From positions 1 to 33,413 of IMG/VR virus record IMGVR_UViG_3300005524_000014: a DNA stretch of 33,413 nucleotides, one strand, 5' to 3'. Shown in pieces: positions 18,437 through 24,822 of this stretch. Below the pieces are notes generated by a model. The model was not told the origin of the DNA and made no database searches. It saw nothing but the letters and a program-made list of their open reading frames with translations. This stretch comes from a virus. Positions within the stretch are counted from its first letter, which is position 1, and each line of letters opens with the position of its first letter. Made by a program: the position numbers and the translations under genes.

Positions 18437-19390
18437 CTACGCCGCCTCCTCCCTCCCCTTGCTCCGAAACCATTCCACCGTCGCCGCGATCCCCGTCTCG
18501 TACGCCACGCGTGGCTCCCACCCGAGAAGCGCGCGCGCGATCGTGATGTCGGGCCGGCGCTGCCTTGGATCGTCCTGCGGAAGCGGCTTGTGCGCGATGG
18601 CTCGGCCACCGAACATCCGCGCCACGTCCTCGGCAATCGAGCGGATCGTGCGCTCGTCGGGGTTGCCGATGTTGACCGCCACCGGGTGCTCGTCGCCGTC
18701 GTACTCCATGAGCGCCGCGAGCCCCTTGACCGTATCGCTCACGAAGCACAGGCTGCGTGTCTGCTGGCCGTCGCCGTAGACCGTCAGCGGTTCGCCCCGG
18801 ATGGCCTGGGTGATGAGGTTCGGCAAGAGGCGCCCGTCATTCGTAGCCATGCGCGGTCCGTACGTGTTGAAGATGCGCGCGATGCGAACGTCGAGGCCGC
18901 CCTGCATGGCGTGCGAAACGCAGAGCGCCTCAGCCGCGCGCTTGCCCTCGTCGTAGCAACTGCGAGCACCGACCGGATTGACGTGGCCCCAGTAGCTCTC
19001 CGGCTGCGGGTGCACGAGCGGATCGCCGTAGACCTCCGACGTGGACGCGACGAGAAGGCGAGCGCCCGTCGACCGAGCGAGATCGATCGCCGTGCGCGTG
19101 CCGAGAAACGCCGTTTCGATCGTGCGCACCGGATCGCGCTGGTAGTGCACCGGCGACGCGGGGCAGGCGAGGTGGTAGACGCGATCGGCGCGGTCGACGG
19201 TCCAGGCGTAGCCCTTGCGCACGTCGCGCGTGCGGAACCGGAAGCGGCCCGAGGACGAAGCGAGGCGCAGGTTGGCGAGCGAGCCCGTCGAGAGATCGTC
19301 GATGCCGAGCACGTCGTGACCCTCGGCGAGTAGGCGGTCGACGAGGTGCGAGCCGACGAAGCCGGCGGCGCCGGTGACTACGATGCGCAT
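18437..19390 (-). CDS. UDP-glucuronate decarboxylase (UDP-xylose synthase)
   Basis: The protein has 317 residues, the full length for the bacterial enzyme. GAAGFVG (7-13) is the Rossmann NAD-binding motif and Y146-xxx-K150 (CYDEGKRAAE) the catalytic pair of short-chain dehydrogenases. Family-specific stretches are unmistakable: HLACPASPVHYQRDPVRTIE (73-92), TSEVYGDPLVHPQPESYWG (118-136) and FNTYGPRM (174-181). The enzyme oxidises UDP-glucuronate at C4, loses CO2 and is reduced to UDP-xylose in the cytoplasm. It starts inside the end of the methyltransferase gene (13-base overlap) and is last in the sugar operon. UDP-glucuronate must come from the host, as no UDP-glucose dehydrogenase is visible. 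Related UDP-apiose or 4-keto-sugar forming enzymes are less likely alternatives. Confidence 0.9.
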   Translation of the reverse strand: MRIVVTGAAGFVGSHLVDRLLAEGHDVLGIDDLSTGSLANLRLASSSGRFRFRTRDVRKGYAWTVDRADRVYHLACPASPVHYQRDPVRTIETAFLGTRTAIDLARSTGARLLVASTSEVYGDPLVHPQPESYWGHVNPVGARSCYDEGKRAAEALCVSHAMQGGLDVRIARIFNTYGPRMATNDGRLLPNLITQAIRGEPLTVYGDGQQTRSLCFVSDTVKGLAALMEYDGDEHPVAVNIGNPDERTIRSIAEDVARMFGGRAIAHKPLPQDDPRQRRPDITIARALLGWEPRVAYETGIAATVEWFRSKGREEAA

Positions 19391-19947
19391 CGGATCGCCG
19401 CTTTCTCCCCACTGACCGCCAGCCACTCGAACGCGATCCCGCTCTCGTACAGGGCCCGCAGCTCGTGCTGTTCGTGCCCGGGGTACTGGAGCAGCTCGTC
19501 GAACACGATGATGGCGCCCGCTGCGAGGTGCGGCTTCACCGCGTCGAGCGCGCACTTCGCCGCCGAGTAGAGGTCGCAGTCGACGTGCACCAGCGTCACG
19601 GGCGAGCGTGGGCGGAAACACGGCAGCGTGTCCTCGAAGCGCCCGACGACGAGCCGCACGCCATCGGGCGGCCACGGGATCTGCGCCTGCGCGAACTCGC
19701 CCGCTGGATGGTCCTCGCGCCACGCCTCCGGCAGACCGCGGAACGAGTCGAAGCCCCATAGCTCGGCTTCGCCGCGAGCTTCGTCGATGCGCGCTAGTGA
19801 TGCGCCGTAGCCGACGCCGAACTCGAGCCAGGTGCCGGTGCGGGAGAGCAGCGGGTGCGCGAGCGCGTATCCGAGCACGTCGGGCGTCGGGCATGGCGCC
19901 TCGCATTCGGCGCTCGCGGCGAGGGTTACGAATTCGTCGTAGTTCAC
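19378..19947 (-). CDS. SAM-dependent sugar O-methyltransferase, TylF-like
   Basis: The protein has 189 residues. The start GTG at 19947 overlaps the phosphatase stop in GTGA. WLEFGVGYGASLARI (40-54) is motif I for S-adenosylmethionine. ELWGFDSFRGLPEAW (62-76) and LVHVDCDLYSAAKCAL (119-134) followed by IIVFDELLQYPGHEQHE (146-162) are typical of TylF/MycF-type methyltransferases, in which acidic residues equivalent to D123, D150 and E151 bind magnesium. Family members methylate a hydroxyl on a sugar residue. It is somewhat shorter than the characterised enzymes. Context suggests methylation of the glycan made by the neighbouring glycosyltransferases. The exact sugar is unknown. Confidence 0.8.
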   Translation of the reverse strand: MNYDEFVTLAASAECEAPCPTPDVLGYALAHPLLSRTGTWLEFGVGYGASLARIDEARGEAELWGFDSFRGLPEAWREDHPAGEFAQAQIPWPPDGVRLVVGRFEDTLPCFRPRSPVTLVHVDCDLYSAAKCALDAVKPHLAAGAIIVFDELLQYPGHEQHELRALYESGIAFEWLAVSGEKAAIRCAS

Positions 19948-22543: not shown

Positions 22544-24822
22544 GCCGCCACCTCCCGATACGCTCCCACCCCACACCGCCACTCGCTCTCGCTGAGCACC
22601 TCGGCGAACAGCGCTTCCCACTGCGCGGCGACGCCATCCCACGAGAAGTTGTCGCGCGCGTAGCTTTGCAGTCGATCGCGGTCGCCGTCTTCGGGGCGGA
22701 GCATGGCGGAGACGACGGCATCGGCGATCCGGTTCTGGTAGCCCTCGTCAAGCCAATCGCCGTCGACGAGCGTGCCGCGATCGCCGACTGTCTCGCTCAT
22801 GGCGGCCACCGGGTGCGCGACGATCCGGCAGCCGGCCGCCTGCGCTTCCATCGCAGAGATGCACGACGTCTCCGGGAACCAGAGCGACCCGCACCACACC
22901 CCCGCCCCCATCATCGCGCGCGCAAGCTTCCACTGATCGATCCGCCCGTGATCGGTCACGCCGTCGAGGTCGCGCATGCGCCGCTTCATGCTCTCGATGA
23001 GGTACTGGTGCTGCCGATCGTTGCTCGACTTCGCCGCACGCTCCCAGCCGGCGAACCCGTAATAGACGTCAAGCGCCGCGTCAGGAACGCGTGCACGGAT
23101 CTGCGGCCACACGTCGAGCAGGACGGCGAGGCCGCGATCTGGCGAGGACGAGTAGATGATCCTGTGCGGATCACGAGGCCCCGGCTTGTCGTCACACGAT
23201 CCGTCGACGCAGCGGCCAAACTGCGTATCGAACCGCGCCAGATCGATCCCGTTTCTCGTCACAACCATCTGCTCGTCGCCGATGTCGTGCACCTCTTGCA
23301 GTCTGCGGGCGTGCCACTTCGTGAGCGCGAGCACCCTGTCGAACTGGCACAGCCTCGATTCGGTGAGCGCGTGCGCCTGTGTGTCGTGACACCAGAGCAG
23401 CCGCGCGCGCGCGTCCTGGCAATAGTCGACGACGGCCGCGTTTCGCCACACGACCACGACGTCCGAGGCACCCACTTCGGCCAGGTGCGCGCTATCCAGA
23501 TACTCGACGCCGCCGTAGAGTCCCTCGGCGCCCACGCTGGCCATGACGCGAACGCGGTGGCCTCTATCCGCCAGTCGCCGCGCCATCTCGACGACGGCCG
23601 TTTCGCTTCCGCCCATGCCGCTGCGCGCGACGATCTCGGGGTTCCATGGCTCGCCGGTCGGCCCGCAGCCAAACACGATGTCCAGGCGTCCCGGCGACGT
23701 GGCGGGGTGAAGCGCGTGCTCGTAGGTGCGCTCGAGAAGCCGCAAGCCAGCGTCGTCCGGCCGCCGCGCGATCGCAACCCGGATCGCGTCGAGTGCCCCC
23801 TCATAGTCGCCCAGCTCCGCGCACACAGCGCCGAGCAGCTTGGGCGCGTGCAGCGTGCGGTCGAGCGGGCGCGTCACAAGCGGCGTATCGGTGGCTGGAC
23901 GGCGCACGGCGTCGGCAAGGACTTCGCGCGCGCGATCGAGCTCTCGCCGATCGCCCGTCAGCCCACGCAGCGCCGCGAGCTTGCCATCCGCGTACGCGGG
24001 CTCGAACCAGGACGGCCGCAGGTCGGCGGCACGCTCAATCCACTCGGTGGCGCGCGCGAACGGTCCCGTCGGCTGCGAGGCCACGAGGCAATCGCTGAGC
24101 GCCAGCATGGCCATCGCGCGCTCGTCATCCCAGCCGCTCGCGCCGAGATAGCGCACGTAGTAGCGCGCGGCTTCGTCGAGTCGGCCTGCGGCGCGCAGCT
24201 CGGTCGCAAGGTTGAGAAGCGTCCACGGATCGTCGCCATGGCCGGCGGCCTCGTAGGCGCGCAGGATCCGAAGGCTGCGCCCGGCTTTCGCGGGCGAGTC
24301 GTTGCCGGTGTGCTTCCACACGATGCGCGGCTCGCGAATGTCGCGCGACTGCCCGTCTCGAGCGACGAGCGTTTCGTGGCACGGCCGCGTCCAGTGGTAT
24401 CGCCCGTCGTTGCGCACGATGCGCTCGCGCCACTGGAGGACTTCGCATTCGCCCTCGGCGCTCGTGGAGTATTCGTACGGGCAGAGGACGCGCTGGCCCG
24501 ATTCGAGGGCGGCCGCCACCTCGGCCAGATGCTCGACGCCCACCACGAGATCGTCCGAGTCGGCCCACATGACGACTGGCTGCGTGGCGAGCGCGAAGCT
24601 ACGGGTGCGAGCCTCGGCGAAGTCGGAGATCGATCCGCCACCCGGGGCGGGCATCTCGTCGTAGCGGTCGGCCAGTGCTCGCACTTCGGCCGCGTCGAAT
24701 ACCGCGCACGGCGTGTGGACGATGCAGACCTCGGCGACGTAGGGGCGCAGCGAGGCGATGGTGCGCGGCAGGTGCGGATCGTCGCGGTGGATGAGGCAGA
24801 GGGAGATCGGGGCCGCACTCAT
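22540..24822 (-). CDS. trifunctional glycosyltransferase: GT2 - TPR - GT4
   Basis: The protein has 760 residues; its ATG overlaps the upstream stop in ATGA. Residues 1-190 are a GT-A fold GT2 enzyme: ISLCLIHRDDPHLPRTIASL at the start, WADSDD (86-91) as the DxD metal site and HWTRPCHETLV at 143-153. Residues about 195-370 are TPR-like helical repeats (PWTLLNLATELRAAGRLDEA; LLGAVCAELGDYEGALDAIR). Residues 380-745 are GT4-type: GMGGSETAVVEMARRLADRG (402-421), VVTRNGIDLARF (520-531), IIYSSSPDRGLAVLLDVWP (555-573) and FPETSCISAMEAQAAG with E651 and E659. GT2-TPR proteins often modify polypeptides or build glycans on them. No secretion signal is seen. It starts the sugar cassette. Confidence 0.87.
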   Translation of the reverse strand: MSAAPISLCLIHRDDPHLPRTIASLRPYVAEVCIVHTPCAVFDAAEVRALADRYDEMPAPGGGSISDFAEARTRSFALATQPVVMWADSDDLVVGVEHLAEVAAALESGQRVLCPYEYSTSAEGECEVLQWRERIVRNDGRYHWTRPCHETLVARDGQSRDIREPRIVWKHTGNDSPAKAGRSLRILRAYEAAGHGDDPWTLLNLATELRAAGRLDEAARYYVRYLGASGWDDERAMAMLALSDCLVASQPTGPFARATEWIERAADLRPSWFEPAYADGKLAALRGLTGDRRELDRAREVLADAVRRPATDTPLVTRPLDRTLHAPKLLGAVCAELGDYEGALDAIRVAIARRPDDAGLRLLERTYEHALHPATSPGRLDIVFGCGPTGEPWNPEIVARSGMGGSETAVVEMARRLADRGHRVRVMASVGAEGLYGGVEYLDSAHLAEVGASDVVVVWRNAAVVDYCQDARARLLWCHDTQAHALTESRLCQFDRVLALTKWHARRLQEVHDIGDEQMVVTRNGIDLARFDTQFGRCVDGSCDDKPGPRDPHRIIYSSSPDRGLAVLLDVWPQIRARVPDAALDVYYGFAGWERAAKSSNDRQHQYLIESMKRRMRDLDGVTDHGRIDQWKLARAMMGAGVWCGSLWFPETSCISAMEAQAAGCRIVAHPVAAMSETVGDRGTLVDGDWLDEGYQNRIADAVVSAMLRPEDGDRDRLQSYARDNFSWDGVAAQWEALFAEVLSESEWRCGVGAYREVAA

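Follow-up and report, generated by a model that had tools for sequence, protein, structure and literature searches.

A phage gene cassette centred on a GT2-TPR-GT4 glycosyltransferase fusion and its possible link to virion glycosylation

The cassette and its genomic context

The IMG/VR virus record IMGVR_UViG_3300005524_000014, analyzed here over its entire length of 33,413 bases (hereafter the window), is classed as linear and is probably a fragment. PHROG matches to tail sheath, capsid, portal, large terminase (TerL), DnaB-type helicase and primase assign it to a contractile-tailed phage, and nearly all of its predicted genes lie on the minus strand. On this strand, at positions 18437..24822, a cassette of five sugar-related genes stands between the replication genes and the terminase genes, with a G+C content similarly high to that of its surroundings (Table 1). 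Its function is probably the glycosylation of proteins of the phage particle, for the reasons developed below.

The five genes, their overlaps and their family memberships, which the initial annotation had read from the bare sequence, are borne out by gene calls, Pfam and PDB matches. The overlaps are of 4 bases at P0001/P0002, P0002/P0003 and P0003/P0004 (13 at the last of these with the alternative TylF start), and of 13 bases at P0004/P0005. As for the translationally coupled run that was also proposed, all five genes indeed overlap by 4 to 13 bases, but the run begins one gene earlier, with P0006, for which no Pfam or PHROG match was found up to E 0.1. Moreover, overlapping genes are frequent across this phage (13 of the 36 other junctions, seven of them by exactly 4 bases, as counted on our own gene list with one start, 30421, set by hand), so that coupling alone is no special sign.

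Table 1. Genes of the cassette and other features of the window discussed in the text.
Feature	Position	Strand	Remarks
P0001, GT2-TPR-GT4 fusion	22540..24822	-	760 aa
P0002, double GT4	20375..22543	-	722 aa; GTG start
P0003, CX5R phosphatase	19944..20378	-	144 aa; dual-specificity/tyrosine type, TpbA/Siw14-like
P0004, TylF/Methyltransf_24 methyltransferase	19378..19947	-	189 aa; GTG start, or start at 19956
P0005, UXS-like SDR	18437..19390	-	317 aa
P0006, function unassigned	24819..25316	-	165 aa; 4-base overlap with 22540..24822; lengthens the coupled run
Major capsid protein	6992..8122	-	PHROG major head protein, 2.1e-16; candidate acceptor
Structural-module protein with C-terminal IPT/TIG Ig-like domain	3515..4492	-	Pfam TIG, 9e-14; candidate acceptor

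The core glycosyltransferases

Pfam and PHROG profiles divide P0001 into a GT2-like domain (residues ~1-190), a TPR domain (~190-375) and a GT4 domain (~375-745). Both P0001 and P0002 exceed the Pfam cut-off for Glyco_transf_4 and Glyco_trans_1_4. The signature E[TS]x6E is present in all three GT4 domains of the two proteins (one in P0001, two in P0002), while the GG[SC] motif was found in two of them, the one in P0001 and the second one in P0002; the first half of P0002 lacks it and begins RGLTGTDL. These domains therefore display the features of GT4 enzymes, namely Pfam GT4-type domains, the E-x7-E motif and, for the GT4 half of P0001, a GT-B fold. The two tandem domains of P0002 share 32-34% identity over 249 aa and are more distant from the GT4 domain of P0001.

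The label GT2-TPR-GT4 holds for the TPR and GT4 parts of P0001. Its N-terminal domain, however, scores 13.3 bits against a Pfam GT2 cut-off of 23.3, and reads IVHTPCAV where relatives mostly have IVDTGSTD, the usual nucleotide-binding motif, hence our use of GT2-like. The DXD motif is retained, and D88, D90, D91, H149 and E150 are invariant across 13 aligned sequences (P0001 and 12 relatives). We considered an inactive GT2-like half but did not retain this conclusion, since the family keeps DXD unchanged and shows variation in the motif that P0001 has lost.

An AlphaFold2 model of P0001 (mean predicted local distance difference test score, pLDDT, 84.8; predicted TM-score, pTM, 0.54) was compared with known structures by Foldseek, in which SPY/OGT and SunS/ThuS rank best, at 12-15% identity. 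These enzymes act on proteins or peptides. They resemble P0001 in that a catalytic domain is joined to a TPR-type domain, by which they hold the acceptor; in P0001, by contrast, the TPR lies between two transferase domains. With VIA-align, the GT4 half reaches Z ~33 to 6kih and MshA, and many GT-B enzymes match, in a list that is filled by the GT4 domain and hardly tests the N-terminal half. P0001 also has a weak sequence match (E 0.003) to GmaR, which we take to be a flagellin glycosyltransferase.

Conservation of the core in other phages

Scans with P0001, with its alignment (A1) and with a GT4 alignment (A2) gave 64 loci, 49 of which are distinct after removal of 15 copies (L003, L007, L076, L082, L104, L105, L114, L116, L117, L122-L126 and L129), judged to be duplicates or to share a contig on the basis of the contig name or of similar coordinates and identities of their matches, rather than of a separate alignment. 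The alignment-based scan for P0001 found relatives in 25 viral loci. We counted a fusion where a match to the GT2 half is followed in order by a match to the GT4 half (>150 residues) within 3.5 kb; 44 of the 49 distinct loci pass this rule, including L087, where the halves lie in different frames.

The pairing of the two transferase genes is well conserved. Among the 27 distinct loci found only via A2, a set that excludes loci already found by the fusion, 26 encode both fusion halves in order, which bears out the co-occurrence of the two transferase genes, and 25 do so in one open frame; in L103 the fusion is interrupted by a stop. A2 leans to the GT4 clade of the window and the five cassette loci that went into it. 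Conversely, eight of the 22 distinct fusion-found loci also carry a separate P0002-like GT4 gene. A fused double GT4 as in P0002 occurs in L095 and L096; other phages have single GT4 genes. In two further loci (L002, 10001-13405; L006, 9986-13234), the fusion gene contains an insert that, by eye in the alignment, resembles an S-adenosylmethionine (SAM) methyltransferase domain.

Alignment-based scans reached further than single-sequence viral scans, which confirmed no relative of P0002 among three pattern matches and one locus of five for P0004. A scan of genome_contigs with A1 confirmed one locus (L072) of 238 pattern matches and says little about bacteria because only two short patterns were used. 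This locus lies on contig WARV01000001.1 of a Patescibacteria metagenome-assembled genome, which is a phage contig, either misbinned or from a phage of that group, in which a major head protein gene adjoins the P0001 relative.

The UDP-xylose synthase homologue

P0005 is the best-defined part of the cassette and by homology a UDP-xylose synthase (UXS, or UDP-glucuronate decarboxylase) of the short-chain dehydrogenase/reductase (SDR) type. It exceeds the Pfam cut-off for the Epimerase profile and carries a YDEGK motif. Its top four PDB sequences are all UDP-glucuronic acid decarboxylase 1, presumably human UXS1, with E values from 3.8e-98 to 2.6e-97 against 3e-38 for the next one; this lead of some sixty orders of magnitude over any other SDR upholds the assignment as UXS. 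When P0005 is aligned with 4gll, the YxxxK pair, STSEVYGDP, GPRM and DDPxxRxPDI are all present, and we take their residues to be functional in UXS. No NCBIfam model is reached above its own cut-off; PRK11908, a UDP-4-keto-pentose/UDP-xylose synthase of a different type, gives 93 bits where 294 are needed. Since no UDP-glucose dehydrogenase is present among the scanned window proteins, the supply of UDP-glucuronate would depend on the host or on phage genes beyond the fragment.

Of the 49 distinct loci, eight encode a close UXS (55-62% identity), whereas 80 terminase-selected loci that add up to a similar length (0.91 vs 0.88 Mb) encode none. In five loci it lies 39-48 bases from the end of the match to the fusion, and in L100 the fusion, UXS and two GT4 genes follow each other in this order with 4-base overlaps. 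Searches of whole records for P0003-P0005, which covered 33 of the 49 distinct loci, recovered strong UXS matches (57-64%) in the same eight records, and only SDRs of 35-42% in five others. SDRs at 20-25% identity near many jumbo-phage cassettes were considered too distant to count as UXS. In L106, L109 and L113, UDP-glucose dehydrogenase genes occur in the same stretch as UXS and would complete the route from UDP-glucose.

In phylogeny, the window and the eight cassette UXSs form one group (support 86/86) apart from 39 other viral UXSs (91/77), with two label changes observed against 12.7 in shuffled data. We regard this support as moderate: the program warned of an unusual composition of the window row and of long branches, and the 13 rows labelled cassette comprise these eight close UXSs plus five more distant SDRs that fall elsewhere. 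The tree excludes matches shorter than 280 residues or below 33% identity, as well as those that contain an internal stop or duplicate a previous row. UXS alone was rejected as a marker of the cassette, since none of 58 loci from a UXS scan has a cassette transferase match at E 1e-5; one of the 58 has a DnaB match. In L094 (ON073792.1, Aphanizomenon phage Yong-DA), the genes annotated around UXS (a Wzy polymerase, a Wzc-like protein, a UDP-glucose 6-dehydrogenase and an export protein) resemble a capsule locus of bacteria more than phage sequence.

Phosphatase, methyltransferase and other accessory genes

P0003 has the HCx5R loop of its family (HCTEGKDR) together with a profile of the protein tyrosine phosphatase (PTP) family (Y_phosphatase2, 36.1 bits vs a cut-off of 27), and its nearest PDB sequence is TpbA, followed by plant and yeast Siw14-type enzymes. 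No relative stands beside the cassette in any of the 33 records, six of which have weak matches only (27-43% identity), all outside the fetched cassette loci. P0004 is assigned as a TylF-type methyltransferase by Pfam TylF (37.2 bits vs a cut-off of 23, covering profile positions 173-234 of 264 only) and also matches Methyltransf_24 (44.8 vs 26.3 bits). The PDB sequences that it resembles include the sugar O-methyltransferases CalS11 and mycinamicin methyltransferase. The best 20 phage records listed for it are all mycobacteriophages, at 42-47% identity; of the 33 cassette records, one has a match, which is weak.

The five-gene order itself did not hold up as a conserved unit, as the exact set occurs in no other record examined, and in none of these records do relatives of P0003, P0004 and P0005 lie together beside the core. 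The initial annotation had seen in it a complete route of donor synthesis, transfer and capping; of this, the core transferases recur and UXS accompanies them in eight of 49 loci, but the five genes are not a fixed set. The phosphatase, the methyltransferase and UXS look like variable add-ons to a conserved core. The closest relative is the L095 record, which in whole-record searches of 10 records matches the capsid (55%), portal (54%), scaffold (49%) and histidine phosphatase (45%) of the window, and carries the fusion, which runs off the contig end, and the fused double GT4. Because this record has no UXS match, xylose would not be essential to the core. The L097 record has the window's primase (67%) and DnaB (45%), the fusion and one GT4, with an FkbM-type methyltransferase nearby. 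Another relative, L090, was uninformative on the presence of the cassette, as its sequence barely reaches that region.

Several relatives have methyltransferases adjoining the transferases, among them L106, where a Methyltransf_24 gene overlaps the fusion by 4 bases, and the block of L008 contains other methyltransferases, a cupin, an epimerase-type SDR and a Gfo/Idh protein. A B12-binding/radical SAM protein, recognized by Pfam, follows the GT4 genes of L100 (12261-13772), and open reading frames (ORFs) whose first residues look alike by eye stand near GT4 or UXS genes in L101, L106, L107 and L113. Near the P0001 relative of L086 (10599..15037), radical-SAM-like genes, two ORFs resembling transketolase halves and an epimerase-like gene were noted by eye, suggesting another sugar route in a phage.

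Structural genes near the cassette

Upstream of the fusion and on its strand, 20 of the 49 distinct loci encode collagen-like runs, of which the closest lies 0.3-6.2 kb away; such runs occur in none of the 80 terminase loci and in seven of the 58 UXS-scan loci. In eight further loci (L072, L077, L078, L080, L083, L085, L086 and L089, the last measured to the match), the P0001 relative has a major head protein gene, confirmed by PHROG, ending 0.4-2.4 kb upstream of it. The P0001 relative follows a terminase gene in L079, L081 and L088, and in L098 the cassette lies upstream of TerL, portal and head genes in a window-like order. In the mycobacteriophage Courthouse, the P0004 relative comes directly after the major head protein gene and before two transferases. 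Transferase genes are thus found among or beside structural genes in many relatives; in the window, the distance from the cassette to the gene just before TerL (14736..15392) is about 3 kb, with five predicted genes in between.

In the window's own structural module, the TIG protein has a homologue in L090 (44%). A histidine-phosphatase-family gene (9385..9909, minus strand) lies within the head module, with 45% identity in the related records L090 and L095 (L213). An ORF of 212 aa (470..1108) is on the plus strand of this nearly all-minus genome; by eye it resembles an HNH-type endonuclease, with no Pfam match.

Comparison with known glycosylation systems

Virion glycosylation by phage genes is already known. 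PMC12619734 summarizes the report of Freeman et al. 2023 that capsid and tail tube subunits of Mycobacterium phages are glycosylated at their C-termini, and describes four groups of putative glycosyltransferases among the core genes of a large-phage lineage. The Corndog authors proposed a modification of the capsid for the O-methyltransferase and the three transferases that this phage encodes between portal and protease (PMC4351075). Mycobacteriophages such as Corndog and Courthouse resemble the window in having a TylF-type methyltransferase, 42-47% identical to P0004, beside transferases. They differ in having no UXS annotated in the three regions shown (Babsiella, ThetaBob and Courthouse) and in their transferases, which gave no match to P0001 or P0002 in the search set out below.

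The podovirus ctKR88 (MW202524) encodes a transferase that shares 31% identity with P0001 over 79%. This gene follows that of the major capsid protein, with one small gene between them, and precedes genes annotated as transferases and methyltransferases; unlike the window, ctKR88 has no UXS among the 19 annotated features of its first 17.4 kb and no P0003 match. A further parallel is the chlorovirus PBCV-1, for which PMC7826918 describes the virus-encoded multidomain transferases A064R and A111/114R, xylose in the capsid glycan and a methyltransferase domain acting on a terminal sugar. This likeness, drawn from the description, is limited by the fact that PBCV-1 is a eukaryotic virus with an N-linked glycan in which the methylated sugar is rhamnose.

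Discussion

The initial annotation left three acceptors open for the putative glycan, namely a virion protein, phage DNA or the host surface. The fibre and capsid neighbours, the fold of P0001 and the lack of PF00303 in 12 records (see below) favour a virion protein, and make the other two options less likely. The cassette therefore probably adds glycan to the phage's own virion, on at least one of its proteins.

Several observations weigh against this proposal and temper our confidence. The cassette of the window has replication and terminase genes as neighbours, with the capsid gene not adjacent, and no collagen-like run is present in the 33 kb linear piece. All eight capsid-adjacent loci share a single capsid family (phrog_1328), and since they may belong to one lineage they do not count as eight independent cases. 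The terminase loci used as controls are shorter (median 8.7 kb vs 21 kb), the controls include no large-phage set, and large phages may be rich in collagen-like genes as well as in this cassette. Babsiella and ThetaBob carry their P0004 relatives at the right end of the genome, away from structural genes. No mycobacteriophage match to P0001 or P0002 was found by tblastn in 50,697 phage records at E 1e-5, and P0003, P0004 and P0005 have no match in the possibly incomplete records of L095-L097. The GT2 activity of P0001 is doubtful and cannot be assumed. Finally, TM-scores to OGT/SPY are low (0.22-0.44, with a root-mean-square deviation near 20), so that on the predicted model the match is a likeness of multi-domain architecture, driven in part by the TPR. 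It is mainly the single capsid family, the shorter controls and the two of three mycobacteriophages without a capsid-adjacent order that reduce our confidence.

A second possibility is a change of the host surface brought about by the cassette in the course of infection or lysogeny, for instance through capping of a cell-wall glycan against further phages. GT4 enzymes and UXS also build cell-surface polymers, and H12, a phage-collection record with a 49% UXS, resembles a capsule locus. Nevertheless, P0001, P0003, P0004 and P0005 contain no 19-residue hydrophobic window above 1.33, the highest such window (1.83, in P0002) lies inside the second GT4 domain, and no flippase, polysaccharide polymerase or integrase is present among the scanned window proteins. 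Together with the position of the fusion near structural genes in many phages, these features make a host-surface target unlikely.

Alternatively, the cassette could transfer a pentose or an oligosaccharide to a modified base of phage DNA, as in RB69 or Thanatos, a possibility that we rate slightly lower still. We presume that the T4-type dCMP hydroxymethylase falls within PF00303, the thymidylate synthase/hydroxymethylase family. In T4/RB69-type systems such an enzyme would be expected, yet PF00303 was found in none of 12 records (the window and 11 cassette records, all possibly incomplete, five of them of 182-436 kb), in a search that covered this route among those to base modification and that detected the family in nine of 14 named genomes as a control. 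The TPR domain as an acceptor-holding element and the fibre and capsid neighbours also fit a protein better. On the other hand, the cassette of the window adjoins replication genes, and papers on phages with transferases usually propose DNA protection or a change of the host surface (PMC10202952). Phages with pentoses on their DNA do exist: PMC6024577 and PMC12838424 describe arabinosyl-hydroxymethylcytosine in RB69 and a deoxypentose on cytosine in Thanatos, and discuss UDP-arabinose or UDP-xylose as donors. Phage-encoded pentose donor chemistry is thus shared with these systems, from which the window differs by the above PF00303 result and by the nature of the donor enzyme, Thanatos TH1_063 being a UDP-xylose pyrophosphorylase and not a UXS.

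Least probable is a chance or cargo cluster of separately acquired genes with no joint pathway: it would fit the frequent overlaps in this genome and the missing P0003-P0005 matches in the records of the closest relatives, but not the core pair kept in 26 of 27 loci, nor a UXS that adjoins the fusion in other phages and forms its own UXS group.

Returning to glycosylation of the virion, the genes can be arranged into a tentative pathway. P0001 would prime the glycan on a protein chain that its TPR holds as acceptor between the GT2-like and GT4 domains, and P0002 would lengthen this glycan with its two GT4 domains. P0005 would convert UDP-glucuronate into UDP-xylose as one donor, with the host supplying the others, and P0004 would O-methylate a sugar of the glycan, while P0003 might remove a phosphate in the pathway or regulate it. 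The glycan of the window phage would then perhaps contain a methylated xylose. From the computed gene content, overlaps, homology, motifs, fold likeness, core pairing and structural-gene neighbours in other phages we infer the enzyme activities, the order of sugars, the acceptor and any benefit, such as shielding of the particle or a change in adsorption.

More tentatively, it is possible that the GT2-TPR-GT4 family as a whole primes glycans on collagen-like fibres or capsids of diverse tailed phages, with donor and capping genes being swapped around it. The swapped set would include UXS with or without UDP-glucose dehydrogenase, TylF- and FkbM-type methyltransferases and other nucleotide-sugar genes. 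If so, related phages would show different coats, sometimes xylose-containing and methylated.

To our knowledge, glycosylated virions have been documented for few bacterial viruses. What appears new here is this core, its UXS partner and the link with collagen-like fibres, none of which appears in titles or abstract openings among the open-access matches listed, although this is not proof that they are unpublished. If our proposal is correct, the GT2-TPR-GT4 fusion would be a recognizable marker of phages with self-made glycans on their fibres or capsids; many of these phages would be large and represented in metagenomes only, and some would have their own supply of UDP-xylose. It would also explain the recurrent block of sugar genes adjoining fibre genes, and would make it testable whether phages vary their surface glycan to escape binding partners or to change adsorption.

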